From positions 1 to 23,226 of IMG/VR virus record IMGVR_UViG_3300044293_000648: a DNA stretch of 23,226 nt; one strand, 5' to 3'. Below the pieces are notes generated by a model, which saw nothing but the letters and a program-made list of their open reading frames with translations, did not search any database and was not told where the DNA came from. The stretch comes from a virus. This document shows, piece after piece, positions 1,526 to 20,884 of this stretch. The position numbers were made by a program, and so were the translations under genes. Position 1 is the stretch's first letter; each line of letters opens with the position of its first letter.

Positions 1526-1528
1526 CGA

Positions 1529-3205: not shown

Positions 3206-3222
3206 GCTGGTGCGGGCCTCCT

Positions 3223-3861: not shown

Positions 3862-3873
3862 GGGGCGTCTCCG

Positions 3874-5276: not shown

Positions 5277-5638
5277 CAGGCTGCCTCCGCCAGGATCTGC
5301 GGCAGCAGGGAGGCGACCACGCGCCGGGGACGGCGGCGGGCGATCAGGAGGTACTCGAAGTCCTCCTCGCCGCGGCGGCGTTGCACGAGATGCGCGAGAC
5401 CCTGCTCGCAGAGCATCCAGGCGCGGCCGGCGAGGCGGGCCAGGGCCATACGCTCAGCCGGCTCCAGCAGGCCGAGCTGCGGGCAGAGGGACCGGGCCAG
5501 CGTGCCGCGGAAGTAGGTGATGGCGTCGCCAGGAGCGGCGGCGCCGAGCCAGCGGCAGAGCGCGGCCTCGGTGAGGGGCGGAGCGGAGCTCCAGGGAGGC
5601 GACGCCGCGGCGGGCGTCCGGGATGCGATGTTGCTCAT
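5276..5638 (-). CDS. Small conserved phage protein of unknown function
   Basis: A 120-aa protein. After a Ser/Ala/Pro-rich start comes a region LTEAALCRWLGAAAPGDAITYFRGTLARSLCPQL and then LARLAGRAWMLCEQGLAHLVQRRRGEEDFEYLLIARR. The GDAITYFRG-to-LVQRR pattern recurs, as I recall, in small proteins of alphaproteobacterial prophages, but I know no function. The start ATG at 5638 lies in an 18-nt sequence (5633-5650) that is repeated in inverted orientation at the start of the small gene at 8265. The AGGA in that block is the Shine-Dalgarno sequence. The downstream stop overlaps the next gene's ATG. Confidence 0.75.
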   Translation of the reverse strand: MSNIASRTPAAASPPWSSAPPLTEAALCRWLGAAAPGDAITYFRGTLARSLCPQLGLLEPAERMALARLAGRAWMLCEQGLAHLVQRRRGEEDFEYLLIARRRPRRVVASLLPQILAEAA

Positions 5639-5650
5639 ACCAGGTCCTAC
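5633..5650 (-). repeat. 18-bp inverted-repeat copy 1 (translation start of the 5638 gene)
   Basis: On the minus strand this reads GTAGGACCTGGTATGAGC and contains the AGGA ribosome-binding site, the ATG and the second codon of the small gene. The identical 18-mer lies on the plus strand at 8253-8270. An exact 18-bp match in a 23-kb window is very unlikely by chance. Confidence 0.85.
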
Positions 5651-5671
5651 GGAGGGGGAAGGTGATGCGTC

Positions 5672-6262
5672 TCACGCCGCCGCGGTGATGCCGGCGGCGA
5701 GCAGGCGCAGGCGCATCTCGGCGATGCGGCGATAGGCGGTGGCGCGGGAGGTGCCCGCGGCCGCGATCGCGGCGGAGGGCGCATCGGCGGAGAGGGCGAC
5801 GCAGAGCGGGCGGTCGCGCGGCGCGATGACGGAGGCCGCGCGGTCGAGGTCGAGACGGCGCTGCAGGTCAGCGACCGCGTCGCTGGGCTGGCCGCACCAG
5901 GCGCCTAGCCCGGCGGCCTCGGGCAGCATCTCCGCCAGCGTCAGCGTCTCGTCACCGCAGGCCCCACCATCGCCGCCCACCACCTCATCGAAGCCCGTGA
6001 GGTGCTGGCGCCGCCGGTCGCGCTGCGCCTGCTGGACGAGGCAATAACCACGATGCCGAAAGCAGACGGTCGCGAAGGCTTCGAGGCTGCCGCGCTTGGG
6101 ATCGAAGGCGCCGAGCCGCGCCAACAGGTCGAGAACCATTTCCTGCTCGACATCCTCGCGGTCATGGCCCGGCAGGCGGACCAGGCGGATGGTGCGGCGG
6201 GATTCGCGGCGCAGGATGGGGCGCAGCAGGTGGAGGTCGGCGAGGGTGAGGCTGGCTGGCAT
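5672..6262 (-). CDS. Sigma-70-like regulator, first gene of the phage early operon
   Basis: A 196-aa protein resembling a compact two-domain sigma factor. Residues 33-72 (GHDREDVEQEMVLDLLARL, GAFDPKRGSLEAFATV) match the region 2 pattern of sigma-70 family members. Residues 155-186 contain a region-4-like helix-turn-helix (AIAAAGTSRATAYRRIAEM). An in-frame ATG at 6301 would add 13 residues, but the ATG at 6262 has GGAG about 6 nt upstream and is followed by a more typical N-terminus, so I choose it. It is the promoter-proximal gene and is transcribed away from the ImmA/XRE switch. It could direct transcription of phage genes, though the RNA-polymerase contacts cannot be verified by eye. Confidence 0.75.
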   Translation of the reverse strand: MPASLTLADLHLLRPILRRESRRTIRLVRLPGHDREDVEQEMVLDLLARLGAFDPKRGSLEAFATVCFRHRGYCLVQQAQRDRRRQHLTGFDEVVGGDGGACGDETLTLAEMLPEAAGLGAWCGQPSDAVADLQRRLDLDRAASVIAPRDRPLCVALSADAPSAAIAAAGTSRATAYRRIAEMRLRLLAAGITAAA

Positions 6263-6517
6263 GGCGGCTCCGGGATCGGTGTGACCTCTAGATGCAAGCA
6301 AATGCCGTCATGGAGGGTGGAGGCGGAAAGGGGCGGAATGGGCGCAAATGCTCGGCAGGATTTCTGCCCCATGGCCAAAGCTCGATTTGGGGGCGATTTT
6401 CCTCTGAAAGCTGCCCGAAGCTCGCTCTGATTTCCGCCCCGACCGTTGCGGAGGCGTGGCTGTGGATTGCGGGGAGAAGGGAACAGGAAGCGAACAAGGC
6501 CATTGACGACGGGGTTA
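6263..6517. promoter_or_regulatory. Divergent regulatory region between early operon and ImmA/XRE switch
   Basis: This 255-nt gap separates the minus-strand early operon from the plus-strand switch genes, so promoters in both directions are expected here. It contains related boxes. GATTTCTGCCCC lies at 6359-6370 and GATTTCCGCCCC at 6429-6440, 70 nt apart in the same orientation. The opposite orientation GGGGCGGAAT lies at 6330-6339, with a weaker GGCGGAAAGG at 6322-6331. A short perfect inverted repeat, GGCAG-5nt-CTGCC, spans 6354-6368 and overlaps one box. These are plausible operators for the XRE protein encoded at 7273. I could not identify convincing -35/-10 pairs. Confidence 0.5.
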
Positions 6518-7276
6518 ATGATCCGGCACCTTCATCGAATGCCCCTCGTCGTCAGCTACCCGCACTCCGCCGGCACCGCCGCCCCGCATCCCCTGTCACG
6601 GGAGGCGCTGTGGAGTGTCGCCGCGCAGGTGCGGCGGCAGTTGCGCGCGCCCGATGAACCCCTGGCCTTGGACATGGGCCGGCTCGTCGGACGCTCGGCC
6701 GAGACGCTTGTAAATGGCCGCCCGGTCCGGGTCGCGTGGGAGCTAGCGCAGCCCGTCCATGACGATGCCGGCCTCTCCGTGCTGGGCGTCTGCGAGACGG
6801 ATCCCGAGATGCCCGGCACCGCGCTGGTGTCGGTCAACGGGCCGATGGTGGCGGGCCGACCGGAGCTGGCGCTCAGCACCGCAGCGCATGAGCTGGGGCA
6901 TGTACTGTTCGATGTGCCCTCGGCGCTCGGAGAGGCCGGCCGGCGGTTCCGCGCTGTGACCGCACTGCCCGAGGCGCTGCTGGACCGGCACGCGGTGCTG
7001 TCCGAGCGGCGGGCCAACGAGTTCATGGGCGCGATGCTGGTGCCGCCGGTGCCGCTGCATCTGCAGATGCTCGTTCACGCCCGTGACGAGGGGCTGCGCA
7101 CCGTCCATGCCGCTCATCACGGCCGGCAAGGCTCGCGCGTGCTGGCGCGGGGCAATCCCCGCGAGGTGGTGGACGGTGTGGTGGCCGCACTCGCCGGCGA
7201 CTTCGGCGTGTCGGAGGGCTTCATCCGGGTGCGGCTGGACCGGTACCGGCTGGTGCAGGGAGGGCTGGTCTCGTGA
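6518..7276 (+). CDS. ImmA/IrrE-family metallo-endopeptidase (M78-like)
   Basis: A 252-aa predicted zinc protease. The HEXXH motif is HELGH at residues 124-128 within STAAHELGHVLFD. The downstream acidic helix SERRANEFMGAMLVP (162-176) supplies the third ligand typical of ImmA/IrrE proteins. In ICEBs1-type switches ImmA cleaves an XRE-family repressor, and here the gene overlaps the next gene, an XRE repressor, by 4 nt (GTGA). I chose the ATG at 6518 because GGGG lies about 7 nt upstream; the ATG at 6539 has no ribosome-binding site and upstream candidates encode Arg-rich sequence. The natural target is most likely the partner repressor. A general stress role like that of IrrE is less likely given the mobile context. 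Confidence 0.85.
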   Translation: MIRHLHRMPLVVSYPHSAGTAAPHPLSREALWSVAAQVRRQLRAPDEPLALDMGRLVGRSAETLVNGRPVRVAWELAQPVHDDAGLSVLGVCETDPEMPGTALVSVNGPMVAGRPELALSTAAHELGHVLFDVPSALGEAGRRFRAVTALPEALLDRHAVLSERRANEFMGAMLVPPVPLHLQMLVHARDEGLRTVHAAHHGRQGSRVLARGNPREVVDGVVAALAGDFGVSEGFIRVRLDRYRLVQGGLVS

Positions 7277-7554
7277 GCTTTGGCTCGGTGGTGCGCGAGA
7301 AGCGCCAGGCGCTGGCGATCAGCCTGAACGACTTCTCTGAGCGGCTCGGCGTGTCGCCGGCCTATTGGTCGCGGATCGAACGTGACCAGGAGAAGCCACC
7401 GCGCGATGACCTCATCGAGAAGGCGGCGGCGATCCTCGGCGTGCGGCTGGATGATCTGTTCGTCGAGGCTGAGCGGCTGCCGCCCGATATGCGCAAGGAC
7501 ATGGCCAAGGTGGTGCAGGCGTATCGGCGGCTGCGGGCCGTCGGACGGGGATAG
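7273..7554 (+). CDS. XRE-family helix-turn-helix repressor
   Basis: A 93-aa protein starting with GTG that overlaps the ImmA stop (GTGA). Residues 5-60 form a typical XRE/Cro-CI helix-turn-helix domain: SVVREKRQALAISLNDFSERL, then GVSPAYWSRIERDQEKPP, then LIEKAAAILGV. The C-terminal tail (RLPPDMRKDMAKVVQAYRRL) is short and may be the dimerisation or cleavage segment. The pairing with an upstream-coupled ImmA protease suggests a derepression switch for the mobile element. The divergent region at 6263-6517 is the obvious operator site. The start is set by the overlap and by alignment of the HTH domain. Confidence 0.9.
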   Translation: MSFGSVVREKRQALAISLNDFSERLGVSPAYWSRIERDQEKPPRDDLIEKAAAILGVRLDDLFVEAERLPPDMRKDMAKVVQAYRRLRAVGRG

Positions 7555-7556
7555 CG

Positions 7557-8231
7557 ATGGCCCCACGCGTTCTGCGCAAGCCCTGCTATGCCTTGGCCGA
7601 GATCTGCACCCGCTGGGGCGTGACGGAGGCGGACCTGGCGAACTTCGCCCTTGCCGATGAGCTGGTCCTGTCGGCGATGGTTGTGCGCCAGCCGATAGAG
7701 GAGGGCGCCGTCGAGGAGGTCGACCCCCGCCAGTTGGCGCACCTCCCGGAGCGCCATCATTGGTTCAGCGGCGGCGTCGAGCTCTGGGCGCAGGATGCCT
7801 GGCAGATCGTTATCGTCGGCAGCAGTAGGGTGACGAGCTTTCGCGCGGCGCAGAATCGATATCGCCGGGTGTGGGCGCCGGACGACGAGGCCGCGGAGGT
7901 TGTGCTGACCCGCGATCGCCTCGTTGTGATGCATGCGGAACTCATCCGGTTCGAGGCGGCACAGGGCGGTGACGTCGAGGTGCTCCGGCCAGCCGCTGGA
8001 CCTGCGTCGCCGCGCGGCGCCCCCGCGCGCTACGATTGGGATGCCTTCTGGTGCGAGCTGGCGGTGATGCTGCAAGTCGAGGGCATGCCGCCGACGCAGG
8101 CGGCTGTCATCCGCCGCATGGAGGCCTGGTTCGCCGAGCGTGGGCAGTTCCCGGATCCCAGCACGGTCAAGCGCAAGGTGGCGCTGCTGTGGCGACATCA
8201 CGCGGAAGCGCTCGCCCGCCCCGCCGCGTGA
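7557..8231 (+). CDS. Hypothetical protein, mobile-element associated
   Basis: A 224-aa protein of unknown function, starting 2 nt after the XRE stop with GGGGAT just upstream. The N-terminal 60 residues (YALAEICTRWGVTEADLANFALADEL) read like a small helical HTH-type segment that may match DNA or a protein partner. The C-terminal 65 residues (YDWDAFWCELAVMLQVEGMP, then AAVIRRMEAWFAERGQFPDPSTVKRKVALLW) form a helical domain with a conserved Trp/Phe pattern that I have seen in alphaproteobacterial element proteins without a named function. Position within the immA-xre cluster suggests a regulatory role. No enzyme motifs are apparent. Confidence 0.75.
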   Translation: MAPRVLRKPCYALAEICTRWGVTEADLANFALADELVLSAMVVRQPIEEGAVEEVDPRQLAHLPERHHWFSGGVELWAQDAWQIVIVGSSRVTSFRAAQNRYRRVWAPDDEAAEVVLTRDRLVVMHAELIRFEAAQGGDVEVLRPAAGPASPRGAPARYDWDAFWCELAVMLQVEGMPPTQAAVIRRMEAWFAERGQFPDPSTVKRKVALLWRHHAEALARPAA

Positions 8232-8252
8232 GACGCCCCGCGAAGCGCGCGG

Positions 8253-8270
8253 GTAGGACCTGGTATGAGC
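8253..8270 (+). repeat. 18-bp inverted-repeat copy 2 (translation start of the 8265 gene)
   Basis: The plus strand reads GTAGGACCTGGTATGAGC, identical to the minus strand at 5650-5633. It covers the ribosome-binding site, start codon and second codon of the small recombinase-cassette gene. The coding sequences diverge immediately after this block. Confidence 0.85.
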
Positions 8271-8486
8271 GCCCGGTCCAGTCAGATGATCATCAACCAG
8301 CACCTCCCGCCGCATCTGCGCGAGGTCTGTTCCATCCTGGCGCGCGGCCTGGTGCGGCTGCGCAGCCGCGCTGCTGAAGACGATGCGCAGGATGCCGAGA
8401 TAGCTCGGGGCGCGGGAGACGTTCGCCTACACTCCACCGCCCACCAGCGCCTGCATGCGAACCCCAACAGGAAGGGACTCGCATGA
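8265..8486 (+). CDS. Small conserved protein of the DUF2924/recombinase cassette
   Basis: A 73-aa protein: HLPPHLREVCSILARGLVRLRSRA, an acidic linker, then DVRLHSTAHQRLHANP. Similar small proteins, recalled rather than searched, precede DUF2924 genes and large serine recombinases in alphaproteobacteria. The stop overlaps the DUF2924 start by 4 nt (ATGA), giving translational coupling. The ribosome-binding site AGGA and the start codon lie in an 18-nt sequence (8253-8270) shared with the 5638 gene on the opposite strand. Function is unknown; an accessory role in recombination is an inference from the strict neighbourhood. Confidence 0.75.
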   Translation: MSARSSQMIINQHLPPHLREVCSILARGLVRLRSRAAEDDAQDAEIARGAGDVRLHSTAHQRLHANPNRKGLA

Positions 8487-8983
8487 CCAGACGATCCACC
8501 GCCGCGACCGCGCCGGCGCCCACCATCCAGAAGATCCCGCCGACGCAGGTGCTAGGGCGGCTCGCCGCGCTGCAGGCAGCGCCCACCGCGGACCTGAAGC
8601 AGCAGTGGCGGGAGCTCTTCGGCAAGGAGCCGCCGCCCTGGAACCGGGCCTACATCCAAAGCCGGCTGGCGTATCGCATCCAGGAGCTCGCCTATGGCGG
8701 GCTGAAGCCCGAGACGGTCGATCGGCTGGTGGCTTTGGGCGAACAGTTGGACGGCGGCAACGTCGTGCTGCGCCGCATCCGGGCCGACAGCCGGCCGCTG
8801 GCCGGCACCCGCCTTATCCGGGAATGGCAGGGCGTGCAGCACGTGGTCACCGTTCGCGCCGATGACTTCGAGTACGAGGGCCGACCCTATCGCTCGCTCT
8901 CCGCCATCGCGCGGCACATCACCGGCACGCGCTGGAACGGCTGGACCTTCTTCGGCCTGCGCCAGCCGGGCGGTAGTGCATGA
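8483..8983 (+). CDS. DUF2924 domain protein
   Basis: A 166-aa protein of the DUF2924 family. The signature region spans about residues 18-78 (VLGRLAALQAAPTADLKQQW, RELFGKEPPPWNRAYIQSRL, AYRIQELAYGGL). A beta-rich C-terminus follows (GTRLIREWQGVQHVVTVRAD, DFEYEGRPYRSLSAIARHIT), ending in GTRWNGWTFFGLR. The ITGTRWNGWTFFGL segment resembles the SAM-like or RAMA-type domain found in proteins acting on DNA. The gene is coupled at both ends (8483-8486 and 8980-8983 overlaps). Because it almost always precedes a large serine recombinase, it is a reasonable candidate for a recombination accessory or directionality protein, but this is not established. Confidence 0.85.
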   Translation: MTRRSTAATAPAPTIQKIPPTQVLGRLAALQAAPTADLKQQWRELFGKEPPPWNRAYIQSRLAYRIQELAYGGLKPETVDRLVALGEQLDGGNVVLRRIRADSRPLAGTRLIREWQGVQHVVTVRADDFEYEGRPYRSLSAIARHITGTRWNGWTFFGLRQPGGSA

Positions 8984-10329
8984 AGGCGCGCGCCACCACA
9001 ACGGCGATGCCGGCCACCACGCAGAAGCTGCGCTGCGCGGTCTACACGCGGAAGAGCACCGACGAGGGCTTGGACAAGGAGTTCAACACCCTCGACGCGC
9101 AGCGCGACGCCTGCGAGGCGTACATCACCAGCCAACGCGCCGAGGGCTGGGCGCTGGTGCGCGATCGCTACGACGACGGCGGCTTCTCCGGCGGCACGTT
9201 GGAGCGGCCGGCGCTGCAGCGGCTCCTGCGCGATATCCAGGCCGACCTGGTCGACGTGATCGTGGTCTACAAGATTGATCGCCTCAGCCGCTCGCTGATG
9301 GATTTCGCCAAGCTGGTCGAGGTGATGGACGCGCATGGCGTCACCTTTGTGTCCGTGACGCAGAGCTTCAACACGACCACCAGCATGGGCCGGTTGACAC
9401 TGAACATCCTACTCAGCTTCGCGCAGTTCGAGCGCGAGGTAATCGGCGAGCGCATCCGCGACAAATTCGCAGCGTCGCGGGCGCGAGGGATGTGGATGGG
9501 CGGCAAGGTGCCGCTCGGCTACGACGTCGTAGCCCGCAAGCTGGTGGTGAATGAGGACGAGGCGCCGCGGGTGCGCCGGGTGTTCGAGATCTTCGCCGAG
9601 ACGGGATCCGGCATCGAGACGGTGGCGCGCCTACGGGCTGAAGGCGCCACCAGCAAGTCCGGGCGACCGCTCGACAAGGGTGATATCTACAAGCTGCTGA
9701 ACAACCGAACCTATGTCGGCGAGGCCGCGCACAAGGGGCAGGTCTATCCAGGCGAGCACCAGGCGATCGTGTCGCGGGAGCTCTGGGACCGGGCGCACGC
9801 GGTGCTGCAGATCAGTCCGCGCGTGCGGGCAAACCAGAACCGGGCGCAGACGCCAGCGCTGCTGAAGGGGCTGATCTTCGGGGTGGACGGGCGGGCACTG
9901 TCGCCGACCCACGCGCGGAAGAACGGCCGGCTCTACCGCTACTACGTGGCCCAGCGCGTCCTGAAGGGTCATGCCGGCAGGGACGACGCCATCGTGCGCC
10001 GGGTGTCGGCGGCGGAGATCGAGGCCGCGGTGGTGGACCAGGTGCGGGCGCTGCTGCGCCAACCGGAGATCGTGGTCGGCACCTGGCGCGCGGCGCGGGT
10101 GGAGGCGCCTGACCTGACCGAGGGCGAGGTTCAGGATGCGCTGCATCGGCTCGACCCGCTTTGGGAACATCTATTCCCAGCGGAGCAGGCGCGCATTGTG
10201 CGTTCGCTGGTCGAGCGTGTGGTGGTTGTCCCCGCCGGCGCGGACATTCGGCTGCGGCTGGACGGGCTCGGCAGCCTCGTCCGCGATCTGACCGCGATTC
10301 GGCCCGATGCGCTGAGGGCGGCGGCATGA
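8980..10329 (+). CDS. Large serine recombinase (site-specific integrase)
   Basis: A 449-aa resolvase/invertase-family recombinase. The catalytic domain spans about residues 18-165, with the nucleophile S26 in YTRKSTDEG, the conserved segment YKIDRLSRS (97-105, R101 and R104) and the helix FAQFEREVIGERIRDK (147-162). A recombinase domain (about 175-280, PLGYDV to WDRAHAVLQ) follows. The region that is usually a Cys4 zinc ribbon reads LLKGLIFGVDGRALSP (294-309), with no cysteines. This cysteine-free form is, as I recall, usual for the DUF2924-linked subfamily. The start overlaps the DUF2924 stop and the end overlaps the next gene. It likely integrates and excises the element; the att site it uses is not visible. 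Confidence 0.93.
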   Translation: MKARATTTAMPATTQKLRCAVYTRKSTDEGLDKEFNTLDAQRDACEAYITSQRAEGWALVRDRYDDGGFSGGTLERPALQRLLRDIQADLVDVIVVYKIDRLSRSLMDFAKLVEVMDAHGVTFVSVTQSFNTTTSMGRLTLNILLSFAQFEREVIGERIRDKFAASRARGMWMGGKVPLGYDVVARKLVVNEDEAPRVRRVFEIFAETGSGIETVARLRAEGATSKSGRPLDKGDIYKLLNNRTYVGEAAHKGQVYPGEHQAIVSRELWDRAHAVLQISPRVRANQNRAQTPALLKGLIFGVDGRALSPTHARKNGRLYRYYVAQRVLKGHAGRDDAIVRRVSAAEIEAAVVDQVRALLRQPEIVVGTWRAARVEAPDLTEGEVQDALHRLDPLWEHLFPAEQARIVRSLVERVVVVPAGADIRLRLDGLGSLVRDLTAIRPDALRAAA

Positions 10330-10724
10330 CTGCCGCCACCAGCATCACGGTCAGGGTGCCGCTGGCAATCCGCCACCGGCGGGGCCGAAAGACCGTCGTG
10401 ACGCCGATGGCAGATGGCGCAGCGCCGGTCACCACGAAGGCCGACCCGGCGTTGGTGAAGGCTTTGGCCAGGGCTTTCCGCTATCAGCGGATGCTGGACG
10501 AGGGGCGCTACGCCTCGATCACCGAGATGGCTGCGGCGGAGCGAATCGAGCGGGGGTACCTGGGGTCCCTGCTGCGCCTGACCCTCCTGGCGCCCGACCT
10601 CGTAACCAACGCCGTCGATGGGCGGCAACCGCCCTCGGTAGCCCTGGCCGCCCTATTGGAACCATTTCCGCTATGCTGGCGCAGCCAGGGCGAATTGTTC
10701 GGCAATGACGGGTCGGGAAAGTAA
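10326..10724 (+). CDS. HTH protein downstream of serine recombinase
   Basis: A 132-aa protein whose ATG overlaps the recombinase stop (ATGAC). After a variable basic N-terminus, residues 40-112 contain a conserved helix-turn-helix-like segment: LVKALARAFRYQRMLDEGRY, then ASITEMAAAERIERGYLGSL, then LRLTLLAPDLVTNAVDGRQP. It ends with LLEPFPLCWRSQ. This is the small ParB/KorB-like HTH protein that commonly follows recombinases of this type. A role in DNA binding at the attachment or partition site is likely but unproven. The open frame upstream of this ATG is a recombinase shadow. The restriction gene's longest frame begins inside the last 20 nt. Confidence 0.8.
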   Translation: MTAATSITVRVPLAIRHRRGRKTVVTPMADGAAPVTTKADPALVKALARAFRYQRMLDEGRYASITEMAAAERIERGYLGSLLRLTLLAPDLVTNAVDGRQPPSVALAALLEPFPLCWRSQGELFGNDGSGK

Positions 10725-10779
10725 TGGCCGCGGCCACATGGCCATTATGCGAGGGCGAAGTCCGTGGCATCTTCGGGGC

Positions 10780-13700
10780 GTGACAGGCCCCGTGATCGAC
10801 AACCCGATTCTCAACAGCCCCTTCGCGGAGCCATCCCGCCATTGGGAGCTCGACGAGAGCGGCATCCCCACTGGCACCCCGGCGCTTGGCCGGCGGCGCA
10901 GCGAATTCATCGTCCCCGTCCCCCCGCCGAAGCACAAGGTGAAGGCCCAGGCCACCCTCGACCTCGAGGACGAGTACGGTAAGCGCCAGCCGAACGACTA
11001 CATCAATGAAATCAGGGCCAAAGTCGCCCAATGGCGTTCCCTCGGCGAACAGGGCCTGCGCCCCGTCACGCCCGTCACGGCCCGCCTGCTGCGCCACTGG
11101 CGGGAACAGGGCCGGGCCCGCCCGCTCTTCTTCTGCCAGGTCGAGGCAGTCGAGACCGCCATCTGGCTGACCGAAGTCGCCCCCCGCGCCGAGACAGAGC
11201 GCCTGCGCACCCTCAATTCGGAAGCCAATCCCGACCTCCTGCGCATCGCCTTCAAGCTGGCGACCGGCGCCGGCAAGACCACCGTCATGGGGATGCTGAT
11301 CGCCTGGCAGACCCTCAACGCCGCCCGCACGCGCAATTCGACCCGCTTCACGGACGCCTTCCTGATCGTGGCCCCCGGCCTGACGGTGAGGGACCGCCTG
11401 CGCGTGCTCCACCCGTCCGACCCGTCCAACATCTACGCCGCCCTCGACATCGTGCCGCGGGAGCTGCGTGACGACCTCCAGCGCGCCCGGATCGTCATCA
11501 CCAACTTCCACGCCTTCAAGAAGCGCGAAACGCTCGAGGCGCCGAAGCTGGCGAAGGAGATCCTGGCCGGCCGCACCGGCAAGGTCGAGCGCCCCGAAAC
11601 CGACGGCCAGATGGCGCAGCGCATCTGCAAGGACCTGCTTGGCCGCAAGCGCATCATCGTCATCAACGACGAAGCCCACCACTGCTATCGCCAGAAGGTC
11701 GGCGCCGCGGATGACGCCGGCGCGAAGCTCGATGCTGAAGGCAAGGCGGAGGCCAAGAAGAACAATGCCGCCGCCCGCCTCTGGATCAGCGGCATCGAGG
11801 CGCTGCAACGCGTCGTCGGCCAGCCTGTCCTGGTGTACGACCTCTCTGCCACGCCCTTCTTCCTGCGCGGCTCAGGATACCCCGAGGGCACGCTCTTCCC
11901 CTGGGTCGTCTCCGACTTCTCCCTAATCGACGCCATCGAATGCGGCATCGTGAAGGTGCCCCGCGTGCCGGTGCAGGATCTGCCGGGTGCCGACGAGCCG
12001 GTCTATCGGCACGTCTATCGCTACATCCAGGAACATTCGGATGTGAAGCTGCCCAAGGCTGGCCGGGCCAAGCAGGGCAAGCCGCTCACGCCCGACCAGC
12101 TTCCCTCCCAGCTCACCGGCGCGCTGCAGGCGCTCTACGGCCACTACCGCCAGGTGTTCGAGAACTGGGCCAGCCGCGGCGGCAGCACACCGCCGGTCTT
12201 CATCGTGGTGTGCAACAACACAGCCACCTCGAAGCTCGTGCACGACTGGATCGCCGGCTACGAGCGCATCGAGACCGACGCCGAGGGTGCCGAGCGCCGC
12301 GTGATCGTGCCTGGCAACCTGCCGCTCTTTTCCAACGTCACGCAGGCGGGCATCGGCCAGAGCAGCATGGTGGAGCGCCCCGTCACCATCCTGATCGACA
12401 GCGAGGAACTCGAATCTGGCGAAGCCCTGTCGGACGACTTCCGCAAGCTGGCAGGCCCGGAGATTGACGCCTTCAAGCGCGAGCTCCGCGCCCGCGGTCG
12501 CCATGCGGAAGCGGAGACCATCACCGACAGCGACCTGCTGCGCGAGGTGATGAACACCGTCGGCCAGCCCGGCCGGCTGGGCGAGCCGATCCGCTGCGTG
12601 GTCTCCGTCTCCATGCTGACCGAGGGATGGGACGCGCGCACCGTCACCCATGTGCTGGGCGTCCGCGCCTTCGGCACGCAATTGCTGTGCGAGCAGGTGA
12701 TCGGGCGCGCGCTGCGCCGCGTCTCCTACGACCCGGTCGGCGTGGATGATTCCGGCAACGCCATGTTCGCGTCGGAATATGCCGAGGTGCTGGGCATCCC
12801 CTTCAGCTTCGTGCCGGCCAATTCCAAGGCCGACTACACGCCCCCGAAGAAGACCACCCAGGTCCACGCCGTGTTGCCGGAGCGCGCGGCGCTAGAGATC
12901 CGCTTCCCGCGCGTCATCGGCTACCGCACCGTTCTGCCGCCCGGCCGCATCACCGCCGCCTTCGACCCCGAAAGCCGCCTGACCATCACGCCGGAGGACG
13001 CGCCGCCCGAGGCCGTCAACGCCGCCATCATCGGCGCCGAGCACACGCTGACGCTGAACGACCTCCGCCACCAGCGCGACAGCACCATCGCCTTCCACCT
13101 GGCCGGCCACACGCTCCGCACTTGGTTCCGCGACAGCGAGGACCACCTGAAGCCCTGGCTGTTCCCGCCGCTGCTGACCATCACGCGGCGCTGGATGGCG
13201 GAATGCCTGACCTGCCTGGGCGGCACCTTCCCGGCCTACCTGCTGTGGCGCGACATCGGCGACAAGGCGGCGGAGCGCATTTTTCGGGCCTGCACACCGG
13301 AGGTGGCCGGGGCAGGGACCCTGCGCCCCATCCTCGACCCCTACAACGAAGCGGGCAGCACGCGCCATGTCAGCTTCGCCACCACCAAGACGAATTTTTG
13401 GGACCCCAACCCGGAAAAATGCCAGGTCAACCTGATCGTCTGCGATGAGAATTGGGAGGCCGCGGCGGCGCAGGCGCTGGACGGCATGCCTGAGGTGCTG
13501 CGCTACGTGAAGAACGACCGTCTCGGCTTCGAAGTGCCCTATGTGGATGGCAGCACCGAGCGTCACTACCGGCCCGACTTCATCGTGGTGGTGGATGACG
13601 GTCGCGGCCCGGATGATCCGCTGCACCTCGTGCTGGAGGTGAAGGGCCGCCAGACCGCGCAGGATGACGCGAAGTACGACACGCTTCGAAAACTCTGGGT

Positions 13701-13824
13701 GCCGGCGGTGAACGCGCTGGGGCGCTTCGGCCGCTGGGATTTTTGCCGGGTGGATGGACCCTATGGCGTGGATGAGATCATCCGGCGGCGGCTGAATGCC
13801 GACGCTCTCTCACGCGCCGCCTGA
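10780..13824 (+). CDS. BPTD_3080-family / type III Res-like restriction helicase-nuclease
   Basis: A predicted 1014-aa ATP-dependent restriction subunit. Walker A LATGAGKTTVM is centred on K166, the DEAHH box is at 297-301, LSATPFFLRG follows, and the helicase C region runs through SVSMLTEGWDARTVTHV to EQVIGRALRR (about 638-647). The C-terminus carries a PD-(D/E)XK-type nuclease: D933 in YRPDFIV, then E953 and K955 in LEVKGRQ. The conserved start in this family reads like PVIDNPILNSPF, so I favour the GTG at 10780. In-frame ATGs at 10705, 10738 and 10747 are possible and none has a strong ribosome-binding site. The cognate methyltransferase begins 19 nt after the stop. The pair would cut DNA lacking its methylation. 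Confidence 0.88.
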   Translation: MTGPVIDNPILNSPFAEPSRHWELDESGIPTGTPALGRRRSEFIVPVPPPKHKVKAQATLDLEDEYGKRQPNDYINEIRAKVAQWRSLGEQGLRPVTPVTARLLRHWREQGRARPLFFCQVEAVETAIWLTEVAPRAETERLRTLNSEANPDLLRIAFKLATGAGKTTVMGMLIAWQTLNAARTRNSTRFTDAFLIVAPGLTVRDRLRVLHPSDPSNIYAALDIVPRELRDDLQRARIVITNFHAFKKRETLEAPKLAKEILAGRTGKVERPETDGQMAQRICKDLLGRKRIIVINDEAHHCYRQKVGAADDAGAKLDAEGKAEAKKNNAAARLWISGIEALQRVVGQPVLVYDLSATPFFLRGSGYPEGTLFPWVVSDFSLIDAIECGIVKVPRVPVQDLPGADEPVYRHVYRYIQEHSDVKLPKAGRAKQGKPLTPDQLPSQLTGALQALYGHYRQVFENWASRGGSTPPVFIVVCNNTATSKLVHDWIAGYERIETDAEGAERRVIVPGNLPLFSNVTQAGIGQSSMVERPVTILIDSEELESGEALSDDFRKLAGPEIDAFKRELRARGRHAEAETITDSDLLREVMNTVGQPGRLGEPIRCVVSVSMLTEGWDARTVTHVLGVRAFGTQLLCEQVIGRALRRVSYDPVGVDDSGNAMFASEYAEVLGIPFSFVPANSKADYTPPKKTTQVHAVLPERAALEIRFPRVIGYRTVLPPGRITAAFDPESRLTITPEDAPPEAVNAAIIGAEHTLTLNDLRHQRDSTIAFHLAGHTLRTWFRDSEDHLKPWLFPPLLTITRRWMAECLTCLGGTFPAYLLWRDIGDKAAERIFRACTPEVAGAGTLRPILDPYNEAGSTRHVSFATTKTNFWDPNPEKCQVNLIVCDENWEAAAAQALDGMPEVLRYVKNDRLGFEVPYVDGSTERHYRPDFIVVVDDGRGPDDPLHLVLEVKGRQTAQDDAKYDTLRKLWVPAVNALGRFGRWDFCRVDGPYGVDEIIRRRLNADALSRAA

Positions 13825-13843
13825 ATCCGGAAGACAGCGCAGC

Positions 13844-16729
13844 ATGGCCCGCCCGAAGAAGCTCAAGCCCGACGCCAAAACCGCCCCCCTTGGCACCGAG
13901 GTGGAAACCCTTGTCCATCCGGCCGATGTCGCGCGGCGAAACATCCCGACCGCGGAGACCGCGGCGCTGATGGTGGAGGAGGAAGCGCGGGCGGAACCGA
14001 AGCTCTATCCCCGCAATCCCGACCTCGACCCGCAACTGGTCTGGCGCGGGAAGGACGCGCAGGACAGTGCGCCGCTGCGCGTCGAGACGGTTCCCATCTA
14101 CATCCAGGAGAAGTTGTATCCCGAGGCGCTGATCCGCGACCTGCAACGCGTCTCGGCGAAGGAAGCGGCACCGCAGGCCGATCTGTTCGGCAGCTTCGAC
14201 CGCATCACGGATGAGGCGGCGCGGCTCGAATTCTACCAGCACGCCGAGAACTGGTCGAACCGGATGATCCTGGGCGATTCTTTGCTTGTCATGAACAGCC
14301 TGGCGGAGAAGGAAGGGCTGCGCGGCCAGGTGCAGATGATCTACCTGGACCCGCCCTACGGCATCCGCTTCGCGAGCAACTGGCAGCCGAGCACGCGCAG
14401 TCGCGATGTGAAAGAGGGCAAGGCCGACGGGATGTCGCGGGAGCCGGAGCAGATCAAGGCGTTCCGGGATACCTGGAAGGACGGCATCCACAGTTACCTG
14501 GCCTATCTGCGAGATCGTCTGGTGGTGGCGCGGGAACTGCTGACAGAGAGCGGCAGCGTTTTCGTGCAGATTGGCGACGAGAACGTTCATCTTGTCAGGG
14601 CCGTGATGGACGAGGTTTTCGGACAGTCCAACCTCGTTGCTCAGATCACGGTCGAAAAGACCAGCAGCCAGACGCAGGAGTATCTCTCTCCTGTCACCGA
14701 CTACGTGCTCTGGTTTTCCCGTGACAAGGCTCGCCTGAAATTTCGATCTGCGTATGTCGGTAAGCAGGGCTCTGCTGGGTTTGCTGAATACCGACGTGTT
14801 CAGGAAGCCACTCTCGCGAGGCGATCCATGTCGTCCGACGAGGTCAGCGGCAGCCGAGAGTTGCCCGATGGCAGCCGTCGCTATCGCCAGGACACCCTTA
14901 CCAGCCAAAGCCAGGGACGGGAGAAAGGGGAGGGCGCGGCCTCTTGGTTCCCAGTCGCGGTGTTCGGGACCGAGTTTCGTCCGAGCATGCAGAACCGTTG
15001 GAAAACAAACGAGACCGGGATGGCGCGCCTGATTGCCACGGCACGGGTCGAAGCGCGCGGCCAAAGTTTAGCCTATGTGCGCTTCCTGGAAGACTTCCCG
15101 CTGATGGATATCAACAACATTTGGCGCGACGTGAAATTCTCAAGCCGTCGTGAGGACAAGCTCTACGTGGTCCAGACGGCAGATATCATGGTGCAGCGCT
15201 GCATGCTCATGACCACTGATCCTGGCGACCTTGTCCTCGACCCCACATGCGGCTCCGGCACGACCGCCTTCGTGGCCGAGCAATGGGGCCGCCGCTGGAT
15301 CACCACCGACACCTCGCGCGTCGCCCTCGCCCTCGCGCGCACGCGCCTCATGGCCGGCCGCTTCCCTGCCTACCTGCTGCGCGACAGCCGTGAGGGCGCC
15401 GCGAAGGAAGGCGAGATCACCGGCCGGCCGCCCGAGGAAGGCCCCTTCCGCCACGACATCCGCCAGGGCCTGGTGCTGGAGCGCGTGCCGCATGTCACAC
15501 TGAAATCCATCGCCAACAACGCCGAGATCGATGTCATCCACGCCAACTGGGTGCCGAAGATCGAGGCCGCGCTCGCCGCCCTCAACACCGCCCTCGGGAC
15601 ACATCACGCCGAATGGCAGGTCCCTCGCACCCTGCCCGAAGACGCGAAGCCGGCGGCGCAGGAGGCGCATGCGGCCTTCTGGGCCGCCCGCCGCGCCCGG
15701 CAGGCGGAGATGGACGCCTCCATCGCCCGCAACGCCGAGACCGAGTTCCTGCACGACCGGCCCTACGCCAAGAAGAACGCCGTCCGCGTCACGGGTCCCT
15801 TCACCGTGGAAAGCCTCTCGCCCCACCGCGTCCTCCCCGCGGATGAGGAAGACCAGGCTGTGATGGAGGCGCTGGCGCAGGAAGCGGGCGAGCCCGTGCC
15901 CGAACGCCGCCCGCTTCGCACCCGGCCCGACAGTGGCGATGACTTCGTGACCGCCGTGCTGGACAACCTGCAGAAGGCCGGCGTGCAGAACACGAAGAAG
16001 GGTGAGCGCCTGACCTTCGCCACGCTGCGCGCCTGGCCTGGCGGCAGCCGAGTCTCGGCCGAGGGCGAATACGAGGAAGCGGGCGTGAAGAAGCGCGCCG
16101 CCATCGTCATCGGCCCCGAATACGGCACCGTCGGCCCGGACCTGGTGCGCGAGGCCGCGCGCGAATGTCGCGACTGGGCGGATGCCATGGTCGTCTGCGG
16201 CTTTGCCTTCGATCCGCAGGTAGGCGACAGCACCATGAATCTCGGCCGCCTGGTGGTGCTGAAGGCACGCATGAGCCAGGAGCTGCGCGCCGCCGAAGCC
16301 TACAAGGCCGGCGGCGGCAACCTGTTCGTGGTGTTCGGTGAGCCGGATATTGAGCTGGCGCGCGTCCCGCGCGACGCGCTCGACCAGGCCGACGGCGCGT
16401 ACGTCGTGCGCCTGAAGGGCGTGGACATCTTCGACCCCACCACGGGCGAGGTCCGCTCCTCCGGCCGGGTCGAGGATGACGTGGCCTGCTGGTTCGTGGA
16501 CACGGACTATGACGGCGACAGCTTCTTCGTCCGCCATGCCTACTTCCTCGGCGGCAAGGACCCCTTTGAGAAACTGAAGACCGCGCTGCGGGCCGAGGTG
16601 GACGAGGACGCCTGGGCCAGCCTCTACCGCACAGAAAGTCGCCCCTTCGCGAAGCCGAAGTCGGGCCGGATCGCGGTGAAGGTGATCAACCACTACGGCG
16701 ATGAGGCAATGAGGGTGTTCAAGATCTGA
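13844..16729 (+). CDS. Beta-class site-specific DNA methyltransferase (Mod of the Res-like system)
   Basis: A 961-aa adenine- or N4-cytosine-type methyltransferase. Motif IV DPPYG is at residues 169-173 and precedes motif I DPTCGSGTTAF at about 466-476, the beta-class order (IV, target-recognition domain, I). The C-terminal 480 residues are an extra region with beta-rich segments (RTRPDSGDDFVTAVLDNLQK, ATLRAWPGGSRVSAEGEYEE) typical of large type III-like Mod subunits. The ATG at 13844 has GGAAGA about 10 nt upstream and the family-like start MARPKKL. An in-frame ATG at 13796 would overlap the nuclease gene. The segment between about 14.62 and 15.23 kb has visibly less G/C at third positions than its flanks, suggesting a swapped recognition domain. 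Confidence 0.92.
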   Translation: MARPKKLKPDAKTAPLGTEVETLVHPADVARRNIPTAETAALMVEEEARAEPKLYPRNPDLDPQLVWRGKDAQDSAPLRVETVPIYIQEKLYPEALIRDLQRVSAKEAAPQADLFGSFDRITDEAARLEFYQHAENWSNRMILGDSLLVMNSLAEKEGLRGQVQMIYLDPPYGIRFASNWQPSTRSRDVKEGKADGMSREPEQIKAFRDTWKDGIHSYLAYLRDRLVVARELLTESGSVFVQIGDENVHLVRAVMDEVFGQSNLVAQITVEKTSSQTQEYLSPVTDYVLWFSRDKARLKFRSAYVGKQGSAGFAEYRRVQEATLARRSMSSDEVSGSRELPDGSRRYRQDTLTSQSQGREKGEGAASWFPVAVFGTEFRPSMQNRWKTNETGMARLIATARVEARGQSLAYVRFLEDFPLMDINNIWRDVKFSSRREDKLYVVQTADIMVQRCMLMTTDPGDLVLDPTCGSGTTAFVAEQWGRRWITTDTSRVALALARTRLMAGRFPAYLLRDSREGAAKEGEITGRPPEEGPFRHDIRQGLVLERVPHVTLKSIANNAEIDVIHANWVPKIEAALAALNTALGTHHAEWQVPRTLPEDAKPAAQEAHAAFWAARRARQAEMDASIARNAETEFLHDRPYAKKNAVRVTGPFTVESLSPHRVLPADEEDQAVMEALAQEAGEPVPERRPLRTRPDSGDDFVTAVLDNLQKAGVQNTKKGERLTFATLRAWPGGSRVSAEGEYEEAGVKKRAAIVIGPEYGTVGPDLVREAARECRDWADAMVVCGFAFDPQVGDSTMNLGRLVVLKARMSQELRAAEAYKAGGGNLFVVFGEPDIELARVPRDALDQADGAYVVRLKGVDIFDPTTGEVRSSGRVEDDVACWFVDTDYDGDSFFVRHAYFLGGKDPFEKLKTALRAEVDEDAWASLYRTESRPFAKPKSGRIAVKVINHYGDEAMRVFKI

Positions 16730-16819: not shown

Positions 16820-16947
16820 GCAGCGGGCGGGGCTCGCGCGGTCGGCGCTGTTACAATTCTTGCCATTGAGAGGTCACGAACGGTGCGCCTAGGCTCGCAA
16901 GCCGACACGCCGTCTGGCTCGGATGGCCCCCGGCCATGTTAAGTGGC

Positions 16948-17277
16948 ATGGAGGTCGCATTCCGGACCAAGACGCTGCGGAGTCTGTGCGAGAACGAGGA
17001 GCTTATGGAGGAGAGATTCGGTCCGGAGATAACCAAGGCGCTGATGCGGCGCTTGGCCGATCTGCGTGCATCGACCTCCCTCTCCGACCTAGTCCTTGGC
17101 GACCCCCGGGACGTTCCAGGGACCAATGGTCGGTCCAAGACGATTGAGATCGCGTCCGGCCACCGTCTGGTCATTCGCGCCAACCATGCGAAGAACCCCA
17201 CGTTGACTGACGGTACAACTGATTGGCGAAGGGTCAGCCACGTTCAGGTTATGTCGATCGAGGTACCCCATGCCTGA
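16948..17277 (+). CDS. HigB/RelE-like toxin (plasmid-maintenance killer family)
   Basis: A 109-aa protein with the RelE/HigB pattern: MEVAFRTKTLRSLCENEELM at the N-terminus, the helix ALMRRLADLRASTSLSDL (about 31-48), a strand HRLVIRANHAKNP in the middle and a C-terminal strand SHVQVMSIEVPHA. HigB-type toxins are ribosome-dependent mRNA endonucleases; activity here is inferred. I choose the ATG at 16948 over the in-frame ATG at 16936 because homologues begin with the ME-V-F strand, though ribosome-binding sites are weak for both. The stop overlaps the antitoxin start by 8 nt, the toxin-first order typical of hig loci. Confidence 0.8.
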   Translation: MEVAFRTKTLRSLCENEELMEERFGPEITKALMRRLADLRASTSLSDLVLGDPRDVPGTNGRSKTIEIASGHRLVIRANHAKNPTLTDGTTDWRRVSHVQVMSIEVPHA

Positions 17278-18382
17278 AGCTGGGACGTTTGAGCCGAACT
17301 GGGTCTCGCCACCTGGCGATACGATCGCGGAGTTGCTGGCCCATCGATCGCTATCTCTCGTCGATTTTGCCGAGCGCATCGGCACGCCGGTCGATACGGC
17401 CGACGAACTGGCACGGGGTCTTGTTCAAATAGATCGGCCGCTGGCGGAGCGCCTCGAGCGCGCCCTTGGTCCATCCGCAACGTTCTGGATCAACCGTGAG
17501 GCCCAGTACCGCGCCGACGTAGCCAGGCTGGGCTCTCGTGCGACTGCGGCCGCAGACAAGGCATGGGTGCAGGAGCTACCGACACGCGATATGGCTGCCT
17601 TCGGATGGATCCGCGCCACAGAGACGTTTGCTGAGAAGCTGGCGGAATGCCTCCGGTTCTTCGCGGTGCCGAACGTCGATGCCTGGCATCGGCAGTATGG
17701 CGGGGCGGCTGCAGTCGCGGCTTTTCGCATGTCATCGGCGTTCGCGTCGCGGCCGGGTGCGGTCAGCACTTGGCTCCGTTGGGCAGAGATTGTCAGCGGC
17801 CGCACCGAATGTCGCCCGTGGGCACCTGAGGAGTTCCGCGCCAAGCTGGACGAAATCAGGCGCATGACGTGGGTCAAGGATCCTGCGGTTTTCCTTCCGA
17901 AGCTGGGGAAAATCTGCGCTGATTGCGGCGTTGCCGTTGTTGTCGCCCGAACTCCAAGCGGTTGTCCCGCGAGCGGGGCAACCCGCTTCTTGACGCCTGA
18001 CAAGGCGTTGATGGTTCTGAGTTTTCGCTATCGGACCGACGACCAGTTTTGGTTCACCTTTTTTCATGAGGCCGGTCACCTGCTTCTGCACGGGAAGGAC
18101 GCGCTGTTCCTGGAGGACGGGAGCGACGTCACCTCACCGGAGGAGGCTGAAGCGAATGAGTTCGCCGCGCGGCTGCTGATCCCCGATGCGCTCCTGACAG
18201 AGTTCCGTGCGCTCCGCCCGTTGCCGAAGGACATCTTCGATTTTGCGCGGAGAGCGGAGGTTGCGCCAGGTATGATCGTGGGCCAGTTACAGCATCACAA
18301 TCGCTTGGGTAAGGATCGATTGAATTATCTAAAGAGGCGATACTCTTGGGATGCAATCTTCGCCGACAGCGCTAACCCCTAA
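17270..18382 (+). CDS. HigA-type HTH antitoxin fused to ImmA/IrrE metallo-endopeptidase
   Basis: A 370-aa two-domain protein. Residues 10-85 are a HigA-like helix-turn-helix (PPGDTIAELLAHRSLSLVDF, AERIGTPVDTADELARGLVQ, LGPSATFWINREAQYR). The C-terminal half carries HEAGH at 266-270 and the downstream helix EEAEANEFAARLLIP (291-305), an ImmA/IrrE zinc protease. Fusing antitoxin and protease suggests that toxin neutralisation or repressor stability is tied to proteolysis, which is an inference. The start ATG overlaps the toxin stop by 8 nt. The gene's tail overlaps the convergent pyrophosphorylase gene by 11 nt. Confidence 0.9.
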   Translation: MPEAGTFEPNWVSPPGDTIAELLAHRSLSLVDFAERIGTPVDTADELARGLVQIDRPLAERLERALGPSATFWINREAQYRADVARLGSRATAAADKAWVQELPTRDMAAFGWIRATETFAEKLAECLRFFAVPNVDAWHRQYGGAAAVAAFRMSSAFASRPGAVSTWLRWAEIVSGRTECRPWAPEEFRAKLDEIRRMTWVKDPAVFLPKLGKICADCGVAVVVARTPSGCPASGATRFLTPDKALMVLSFRYRTDDQFWFTFFHEAGHLLLHGKDALFLEDGSDVTSPEEAEANEFAARLLIPDALLTEFRALRPLPKDIFDFARRAEVAPGMIVGQLQHHNRLGKDRLNYLKRRYSWDAIFADSANP

Positions 18383-19316
18383 ATGAAATGAATTTGGCTG
18401 GGCTTTTTTGCCAATTACAAATGGCGTCCTCAAGCGTTTGCATACCCGCTTGCAGGTGATCGTCTAGGGTCAGCAAGCTCTTGTCGAGAATTTTCCCGCT
18501 GAGTGCGGAGTGTACATTACCGGTGAACAGCAGCCGAGCACCACGCAGTGGTCCAGTGGCCTCCCCTAGATAGGCTGATCCTGGGTCGATCGGCGCGATC
18601 CCAAGCTTACCCAGCATCGTGAGGTAATCGAACTTCGCCAGCCTGCCGAAACGGCGGACTGCATTCATTTGAACGTACAGGTGATTGAAGACTTCCTTCG
18701 GATTCTGTCCGACCAGCCTGTGGGCGTCTCGGATCAGGTCCTGGTGCGTGCGTGGTGGCCGAACCCACTGAACGTAGGAATCGAACACAGCCGCGGTTCC
18801 GGCTGCCGACGACGCCTTCAGGCTCTCATACTTCCGGTGATTGCTGAACCGGCGTGAGACGCCGTCACCACCCGAGAGGCGTCTCTCGTGAGCAGTTAAC
18901 CAAACACGGAATGCAGCCGGGTTCGCGCTAATCGTCTTCCAGTCCCACAATCCGGGTCCGCCTAGTTTGCCGTAGACGTCGCGGGCCAGGCGCCAGCCAT
19001 CTCGCGCATGCTTTCCAAAATGCGTGGCGATGAACGTCAGCCAATACGCCTCGTCGACCTCACCGCGCCGAAGCCGCAAAGCTGCGGCCCTCAACGGGTC
19101 AAATAGGTCAGAATGTGGATCCATCCGGCGCGGGTCGTGCAGATTGTCCCGAACCCAGTGGACAAATTCGATTCGGCGCAGGCTCTCGACGAGCTGCTCA
19201 ACAAGGCAGTCGAGGTGCCCCGGCGGGTGGATGCCCGGCAGTTGCTGCACTTGCGCGTCGATCCTCTGCAATTCTGCTGAAAGACGTAGACCGCGTTGAC
19301 GCTCCCCAGGCTTCAC
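18372..19316 (-). CDS. Alpha-glutamyl/putrescinyl-thymine pyrophosphorylase clade 3 protein
   Basis: A 314-aa protein I recognise as aGPT-Pplase clade 3. Distinctive segments are LVEQLVESLRRIEFVHWV (39-55), SDLFDPLRAAAL (69-80), DEAYWLTFIATHFGKHARDG (88-107), VYGKLGGPGLWDW (114-126), SNHRKYESLKA (158-168), FGRLAKFDYLTMLGKLGI (223-240) and the C-terminal GMQTLEDAICNWQKSPAKF. In hypermodified phages related proteins install amino acids or polyamines at the methyl group of thymine through a pyrophosphorylated intermediate. Clade 3 members are mostly bacterial and, as far as I know, untested. The start overlaps the stop of the synthase gene (ATGA), so the two are coupled. The tail overlaps the HigA-ImmA gene by 11 nt, convergently. 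Confidence 0.82.
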   Translation of the reverse strand: MKPGERQRGLRLSAELQRIDAQVQQLPGIHPPGHLDCLVEQLVESLRRIEFVHWVRDNLHDPRRMDPHSDLFDPLRAAALRLRRGEVDEAYWLTFIATHFGKHARDGWRLARDVYGKLGGPGLWDWKTISANPAAFRVWLTAHERRLSGGDGVSRRFSNHRKYESLKASSAAGTAAVFDSYVQWVRPPRTHQDLIRDAHRLVGQNPKEVFNHLYVQMNAVRRFGRLAKFDYLTMLGKLGIAPIDPGSAYLGEATGPLRGARLLFTGNVHSALSGKILDKSLLTLDDHLQAGMQTLEDAICNWQKSPAKFISFRG

Positions 19317-20368
19317 GGCGCTGCCACCAGCTTGTTGCTGCCTCCATCCATGATCCCTGGAAGGCCTTTCTGAGGTTCGTCCGAAGCTGCTGTTAGGGCC
19401 TGGGCCTTGCGACGAATGAATGAAGCGTAGGCGCCGCTATGCATTGCTTTCTGCTCCTCCACGATCCCGCGACGGTCCTTTGAATTGATCAAAGCGAAAA
19501 TGCGGAGAAGTCGCGCCAGGTCGACCCAGTAGGGATCAACACCATCTGCCTCAAGCGGGGACAGGCGCCCTTTCCTGATCGCCTCTTCGTTTGCTCGTAA
19601 CCAGTCAATAGAGGGCCATGGATCACCGATCGGCATAGCGGGCATTTCGGTTCGGTATTGCCAGCCCTCCGCCAGGAAATCGCGCGCCCTGCGTTCATCT
19701 TGATCATAGAGATGAAGGCTACCGACGGAGTGTGTGTAGGTTCCGAGCTCTAAACCCACGTCACGGGCCACGATTTCCTGCATGAATGTAAATGCGAATA
19801 CGTCGTGCGGCAGACCGATGTAGGCGTCGTTTGATCGCATATGAACAACCATATGCAACCTTCCTCCCCTTGGAAGGAACTGCATTGTGCAGGTACACGG
19901 CACATCTGAGGAATTTGTGAGTAGGTCAAGTTTGTCGTAAATTTGAATTACGGCTTGTCGAGTATCGGATTTTCCATTCGGATCAGCCAGTTTTCGTCGA
20001 ATCAATTGTATGACCGCATTCATCTGGCTTTTGTTGCCGGAGCCGAAAATGCGAGGTCCGTAACCACCGCTCGCAAGTCTTGCGCCTTTCTTTGCCCCCG
20101 AGAGGTCTCGGTATTTTTTTATGTAATACGTGATGTGGTCGAGAGAGTTGGATCCGGAGAGATACCATAAAGTTTCGCCAAGGCAGCTAAACAAGACTGC
20201 GCGATTCTCTGTTCGGCTGAAGCGAGCACGAGGGTTTCGGATTTTCAAAATCGCACCGATGATTTCGCGCGCCAGACCCTTTCCCGAGCTCGTGCGGGTC
20301 TTACTGCTCAATAGACGGGTGAATGCCTGACGAAGCGCGTCATCAAGCGTGTCGGCACTGATGAACAT
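19313..20368 (-). CDS. Thymidylate-synthase-like pyrimidine (hydroxy)methylase
   Basis: A 351-aa homologue of thymidylate synthase. The catalytic Cys is C158 in VPCTCTMQF. The phosphate and base region reads MRSNDAYIGLPHD (177-189), and HLYD (219-222) matches the C-terminal nucleotide-binding motif. ETLWYLSG (65-72) and GGYGPRIFG (101-109) match the folate-site and Tyr-Gly segments. Counting from the catalytic Cys, D189 falls exactly at E. coli Asn177, which selects uracil in dUMP synthases. Asp there is seen in dCMP hydroxymethylases and favours cytosine. The enzyme is therefore more likely to make a 5-methyl or hydroxymethyl cytidylate than dTMP. The segment is more A/T-rich than the flanking genes. 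A C-terminal extension (about 310-351) has no counterpart in the short synthases. Confidence 0.85.
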   Translation of the reverse strand: MFISADTLDDALRQAFTRLLSSKTRTSSGKGLAREIIGAILKIRNPRARFSRTENRAVLFSCLGETLWYLSGSNSLDHITYYIKKYRDLSGAKKGARLASGGYGPRIFGSGNKSQMNAVIQLIRRKLADPNGKSDTRQAVIQIYDKLDLLTNSSDVPCTCTMQFLPRGGRLHMVVHMRSNDAYIGLPHDVFAFTFMQEIVARDVGLELGTYTHSVGSLHLYDQDERRARDFLAEGWQYRTEMPAMPIGDPWPSIDWLRANEEAIRKGRLSPLEADGVDPYWVDLARLLRIFALINSKDRRGIVEEQKAMHSGAYASFIRRKAQALTAASDEPQKGLPGIMDGGSNKLVAAP

Positions 20369-20809: not shown

Positions 20810-20884
20810 TGGAGCGGGCGAAGGGATTCGAACCCTCGACCCCAACCTTGGCAAGGTTGTGCTCTACCCCTGAGCTACGCCCGC
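20810..20884 (-). tRNA. tRNA-Gly (anticodon GCC), CCA encoded
   Basis: On the minus strand the gene reads from 20884. The acceptor arm GCGGGCG pairs with CGCCCGC at the 3' end. The anticodon stem-loop ACCTTGCCAAGGT presents GCC, which reads glycine codons GGC and GGT. The T-loop GGTTCGAATCC is present, the discriminator is T, and CCA is encoded at 20812-20810. The 3' end points toward the accessory region, the usual orientation for a tRNA gene used as an attachment site. Confidence 0.96.

Follow-up and report, generated by a model that had tools for sequence, protein, structure and literature searches.

A thymidylate synthase (TS) homologue lying next to a protein with a thymine-directed family name raises the question of which base it serves, and whether the product is derived from thymine or from cytosine. 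The gene, here called c0 (19313..20368, minus strand, 351 aa), is carried by the IMG/VR record IMGVR_UViG_3300044293_000648, of which a stretch of 23,226 nt was analysed (the window). c0 belongs to the TS superfamily (PF00303, 2.2e-18). When it was searched against the PDB, the closest solved relative was the CMP hydroxymethylase MilA (E 3.1e-44), and the best TS scored only 1.7e-14.

For residue mapping, c0 was aligned using MAFFT with E. coli ThyA (EcTS), T4 gp42, SPO1 gp29, and MilA. D189 (codon at 19802..19804, minus strand) fell in the column of EcTS Asn177, T4 D179, and MilA D186, as a sequence-only reading of the locus had proposed for this base-selecting residue. The catalytic nucleophile C158 (codon at 19895..19897, minus strand) precedes it by 31 residues without a gap, and the same spacing was found in EcTS (146/177), T4 gp42 (148/179), and MilA (155/186). 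Both codons fall within 19790-19900, the stretch to which that reading referred. phmmer by itself also placed the D189 column on the MilA Asp. The earlier description of Asp as the hallmark of dCMP hydroxymethylase agrees well with published work: Asp186 of MilA is common to cytosine enzymes, while uracil enzymes carry Asn (PMC5175136), the D179N exchange in T4 gp42 lowered kcat about 3600-fold (PMC6400193), and positions 177 and 147 were those most associated with modified DNA in metagenomes, with Asp at 177 (PMC8670742). The statement that an Asn-to-Asp swap moves TS preference to dCMP is likewise present in the literature on this site.

The remaining substrate residues were read from the same alignment. 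T159, next to the nucleophile, occupies the EcTS 147 position, which is His in EcTS, Thr in T4 gp42 and MilA, and Asn in the dUMP hydroxymethylases SPO1 gp29 and PaMx11 gp51. D155 (codon at 19904..19906, minus strand), three residues ahead of the Cys, matches T4 D145, which activates water for hydroxymethylation (PMC6400193); EcTS has Leu there. At the sugar site, R137 (codon at 19958..19960, minus strand) and S179 (codon at 19832..19834, minus strand), corresponding to EcTS 126 and 167, represent the deoxy-preferring state and not the Lys133/Ala176 pair of MilA, in which the A176S/K133R exchange switched the preference from CMP to dCMP (PMC5175136). The position R127 is occupied by Gln in the window enzyme. 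As judged from sequence, these residues strongly support a cytosine base, a deoxyribose sugar, and hydroxymethylation over methylation, while CMP is disfavoured as the substrate by Ser179 and Arg137. A canonical TS was rejected on residues 177, 147, and 143 and on the NCBIfam TS equivalog cut-offs (best score of 62.7 bits vs 327 bits required), and a MilA-type CMP enzyme was rejected on R137/S179. Considered alone, c0 is very probably a dCMP 5-hydroxymethylase.

One residue of the T4 enzyme is missing. The T4 Ser94 site (Ser/Thr two residues before Tyr96) is G101 in c0 and Gly in nearly all relatives. Because T4 S94A retains about 25% activity (PMC6400193) and SPO1 gp29, with Ala in this column, also lacks the Ser, its absence argues less against the functional call than against placing c0 in the T4-type family. 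We therefore treat c0 as a functional counterpart of gp42 and do not count it among the gp42-type enzymes.

Relatives of c0 were gathered from bacterial genome contigs (21 loci), from seven plasmids, and via the partner family (two loci). The patterns used to find them did not contain the Asp, and L028 and L030 were retrieved via the partner gene and not via the TS homologue. Since all 29 aligned clade members carry Asp at the 177 position, D189 is neither chance nor a sequencing error. Thr147 and Ser167 (EcTS numbering) were equally invariant, Arg126 was present in 28 of 29, and position 143 was Asp or Glu in all but one, which has Asn. The 29 relatives form one clade (support 0.94), with the fragmentary or broken copies in L021 and L022 omitted from the final tree. 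In L022, a Bradyrhizobium metagenome-assembled genome, the hydroxymethylase and its partner are each split by apparent frameshifts (7986-9876). Relatives outside the clade, located beside nucleoside 2-deoxyribosyltransferase genes, have the MilA-type Lys/Ala pair; thus, residues and gene context agree, which served as an internal check. Purifying selection was evident in three sequence pairs, with dN/dS of about 0.1 for c0 (0.09-0.12), for its partner c1, and for the neighbouring c2. A second dTMP synthase was found in all 13 host genomes tested (eight ThyA and five ThyX). The phyla among the carriers include Pseudomonadota, Actinomycetota, Bacteroidota, Acidobacteriota, Myxococcota (represented by a Sorangium), and Spirochaetota (represented by a Leptospira plasmid).

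The partner, c1 (18372..19316, minus strand), overlaps c0 by 4 bases and is an aGPT-Pplase3/ADDT protein, predicted to be a DNA-base amino-acid or amine transferase. It scored above the Pfam gathering thresholds for both PF18746 (1.9e-106, 356 bits) and PF18724 (1.3e-72, 244.7 bits). The constant pairing of c0 with such a protein is strongly supported by gene content: among 72,556 plasmid records, eight had a c1 match, and these were identical to the eight top c0 records. PF18746 was present in 4 of 398 sampled Pseudomonadota, of which one is the seed genome and one carries a divergent homologue that stands alone (L049, 1651-2559), without a hydroxymethylase or XRE-ImmA gene nearby. An earlier description of the c0-c1 pair may exist, a likely place being the 2013 survey of base-modification systems.

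The AlphaFold model of c1 (pLDDT 93.8) matched best the phage PaMx11 5-phosphomethyl-dU glycinyltransferase PUGT (8z2n; Z 10.4, 217 residues aligned, rmsd 4.3), with a Foldseek E of 0.43 that is modest for a helical protein. HhH DNA glycosylases followed, and Qng1/DUF2419 was nearly as good (Z 8.9). On the strength of the models, the folds of c1 and of c4, an optional gene described below, are taken to be a PUGT/HhH DNA glycosylase fold and a uracil-DNA glycosylase (UDG) fold, respectively. PUGT (gp46) falls in PF18724, as does c1; the link between the two rests on this shared Pfam model and on the fold, hhalign against single PaMx11 proteins being uninformative. Profile searches with c1, c3, and c4 against PDB sequences gave no matches.

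PaMx11 also provided a control for the base assignment. Its TS homologue, gp51, has Asn at both 177 and 147, as expected for a uracil enzyme. Thus, one transferase family pairs with a uracil enzyme in PaMx11 and with a cytosine-type enzyme in the module. Because the PaMx11 transferase acts on a dU derivative and the TS homologue of that phage carries Asn, the "thymine" in the name of the partner, which comes from phage relatives, is not binding for c0 or its module. The conflict with this name that the sequence-only reading had pointed out is borne out for the synthase by the selector residues and the Asn control, while a cytosine-derived base in the final DNA stays a prediction. PaMx11 encodes a 5-hmdU kinase domain (gp50). 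Kinases of this type (PF18723, PF18748) were detected in the PaMx11 positive control and in 0 of 17 host genomes. This leaves hydroxymethyl activation as the main gap in the module explanation.

The unit is larger than had been seen from the window sequence. In every complete locus, the gene order was c0-[optional c4]-c1, adjoining the XRE-ImmA gene c2 with an approximately 110-aa gene, c3, directly upstream of c2. The two halves converge in all loci but L005, which has both on one strand. In the window, c2 (17270..18382, plus strand) encodes an XRE plus ImmA/IrrE metallopeptidase-like protein (PF06114, 3.4e-10; PADLOC PD-Lambda-2_B, 4e-21), and its family matches PD-lambda-2 component B (PDLC03982) at 4e-21 to 6e-28. 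PD-lambda-2 is an abortive-infection system of the toxin-antitoxin (TA)-like type (PMC9519451). c3 (16936..17277, plus strand; 113 aa) overlaps c2, sits in the toxin position, and has a profile match in all complete loci. Its place and size fit a HigB-like toxin (PD-lambda-2 component A), but its family had no match in Pfam or PADLOC or by hhalign against one HigB-type protein, and an assignment as HigB was left unsupported by these searches.

c4 (266 aa), which the window lacks, has a model with a UDG fold (Z 13.6 to a family 4 UDG; TDG by Foldseek at 1e-5) and a conserved GxNPSN motif. Loci with c4 are dispersed over the c0 tree, which makes repeated gain or loss of this gene probable. Mrr_cat-like nuclease genes lie near the module in six loci (L007, L008, L010, L014, L020, and L035), mostly upstream of and divergent from the hydroxymethylase gene, and such a nuclease is a possible optional effector. 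No dNMP kinase was found in the conserved module, although T4 requires a kinase of this type encoded by the phage itself.

The module lies between a large serine recombinase (8980..10329, plus strand; PF00239/PF07508) and tRNA-Gly (20810..20884, minus strand). The recombinase belongs to the carrying island, is common to the Pseudoroseomonas cervicalis locus (L002) and to L003, and has a mobility function outside the module. The homology of P. cervicalis to the window ends exactly at the end of tRNA-Gly, the island edge; a direct-repeat search inside the window for att sites yielded nothing useful. A type III-like restriction-modification (R-M) pair occupies 10705-16729 and consists of a BPTD_3080-family restriction protein (1160 bits) and MTase_III. 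In P. cervicalis, a deletion of approximately 2.5 kb across this pair (window 12598-15154) has left both genes truncated, and L003 is without most of them. As the module is intact in both, R-M pair and module are independent, and a dependence of the one on the other was rejected. Positions 1-8300 encode a PD-(D/E)XK protein, a helicase, an AAA_24 ATPase, and a sigma-70-like protein. Although the record is classed as viral, the window ORFs scanned showed no structural phage genes, which suggests an integrative element or provirus fragment. A phage origin of the module was also rejected: the IMG/VR relatives found were the same islands only, and the best c1 match among phage records reached only E 0.08.

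On this evidence, we consider that c0 performs the opening step in a mobile bacterial module which most likely makes a hypermodified cytosine and would have a role in defence or addiction, a reading to which we assign a probability of roughly 0.6. In the proposed pathway, c0 would convert dCMP and methylene-THF to 5-hydroxymethyl-dCMP (hm-dCMP), which host kinases may phosphorylate for incorporation into DNA. c1 would then flip the base and attach an amino acid or amine to its 5-hydroxymethyl carbon, yielding a presumed cytosine counterpart of the phage thymine hypermodifications. The XRE-ImmA and small-gene pair may act as a TA-like regulator or effector linked to the cytosine mark. For the Mrr nuclease and the optional UDG-fold protein, a part in reading or attacking DNA according to its base state is conceivable. 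The full module would behave as a modification-linked defence or addiction unit. A more specific form can be entertained only tentatively, in which amino-acid- or amine-substituted 5-methylcytosine would be set in cellular DNA through hm-dCMP and a kinase-free ADDT enzyme, and this self mark would be read by the PD-lambda-2-like XRE-ImmA pair together with optional glycosylase or nuclease effectors, as an immune or addiction system.

The strongest rival places the chemistry on free nucleotides. Here, c0 would make hm-dCMP as a decoy, a poison, or a drain on dCMP, c1, with its HhH glycosidase-like fold, would hydrolyse or derivatise hm-dCMP before it reaches DNA, and defence would result from nucleotide interference. 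This route fits the negative search for a 5-hydroxymethyl kinase in the 17 host genomes and the lack of a dNMP kinase in the module, as well as the resemblance of c1 to Qng1/DUF2419, which acts on mononucleotides. It also has a precedent in the MilA-type relatives, which work with a nucleotide N-glycosidase; MilB hydrolyses hmCMP during the synthesis of mildiomycin (PMC4081090). However, c1 is placed in Pfam ADDT with PUGT, which is also its top fold match, and the optional UDG-fold gene and Mrr_cat nuclease point to DNA. We regard the nucleotide route as rather unlikely.

The other alternatives deny the predicted activity of c0 itself. If Asp189 were tolerated drift in what is still a uracil enzyme (a dUMP hydroxymethylase or TS), the thymine-directed Pfam name of the partner would be explained, and it is true that the call for c0 is drawn from sequence. 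This is improbable given the joint presence of Asp and Thr147 in 29 of 29 relatives, the Asn found at both sites in SPO1 gp29 and PaMx11 gp51, the loss of turnover in T4 D179N, and the other dTMP synthases of the hosts. Similarly, MilA as the closest solved relative would favour a MilA/BcmA-type CMP hydroxymethylase for a nucleoside natural product, but both sugar-site residues are the deoxy versions that redirected MilA to dCMP, the c0 clade differs from that of the relatives beside MilB-like genes, and nucleoside-antibiotic genes are absent next to c0; this explanation is highly improbable. A decaying island passenger without current function is scarcely credible. The truncated or absent R-M genes in the closest relatives and the frameshifted copy in L022 count in its favour, yet dN/dS stays at about 0.1 for three genes of the module and the catalytic residues are retained across phyla.

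The hypermodification reading has several consequences. A family labelled thymidylate synthase in databases would be re-labelled as probable dCMP hydroxymethylases, and 5-hydroxymethylcytosine-derived bases are predicted in bacterial, not phage, DNA of several phyla. Base hypermodification would also be linked to a TA-like defence pair, which is a testable connection. The chemical question raised is how an ADDT-family transferase could act without the kinase used in phages. The unit to be considered comprises the hydroxymethylase, an optional UDG-fold protein, and the transferase, is usually convergent with the XRE-ImmA and approximately 110-aa genes, and resides on islands and plasmids.

Related enzymes occur in other settings. 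The Geobacillus (L039, 1393-10147) and Streptococcus salivarius (L042, 2496-8642) plasmids share a cluster of an Asp-type TS homologue, a QueA-like ribosyltransferase-isomerase, a PqqD-like protein, a phosphotransferase, and a CYTH protein; a further TS homologue in Geobacillus shows changes at active-site residues. On a Streptomyces plasmid (L041, 3356-8906), an extended TS homologue with Asp and the MilA-type Lys/Ala pair lies in one gene row together with nucleoside-diphosphate kinase, radical SAM, aldo/keto reductase, and MazG-like genes. An annotated deoxyuridylate hydroxymethyltransferase of an Agathobaculum phage (L044, 3838-4500) has Asp and Ser and is probably a dCMP enzyme, as is phage G gp319.

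Compared with known systems, c0 shares with T4 gp42 the equivalents of D179, T149, D145, S169, R123, C148, E60, and Y96 at about 26% identity, apart from the missing Ser94. However, gp42 works in the context of glucosyltransferases and a dNMP kinase, whereas c0 is bacterial, mobile, and located beside an ADDT protein. MilA is closer (about 39% identity over 257 aligned positions) and agrees with c0 in the two Asp and the Thr of the base-selecting and hydroxymethylation sites, but differs in clade, in gene context, and at the ribose sites, where Arg and Ser in c0 in place of Lys and Ala predict a deoxy substrate. As in the module, PD-lambda-2 has an XRE-ImmA gene (component B) after a small gene in the toxin position; the module adds the hydroxymethylase and transferase pair, and the searches made with c3 gave no sequence match to HigB. 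DefensePredictor lists the aGPT-Pplase domain as a predicted, unvalidated anti-phage defence, and the figure concerned also includes a UDG domain (PMC13092281); its likeness to the module is one of domain types. The PaMx11 thymine hypermodification system likewise combines a TS-type hydroxymethylase with an ADDT-family transferase, but it is a phage system with Asn for uracil and a 5-hmdU kinase, in contrast to a bacterial, TA-linked module with Asp for cytosine.
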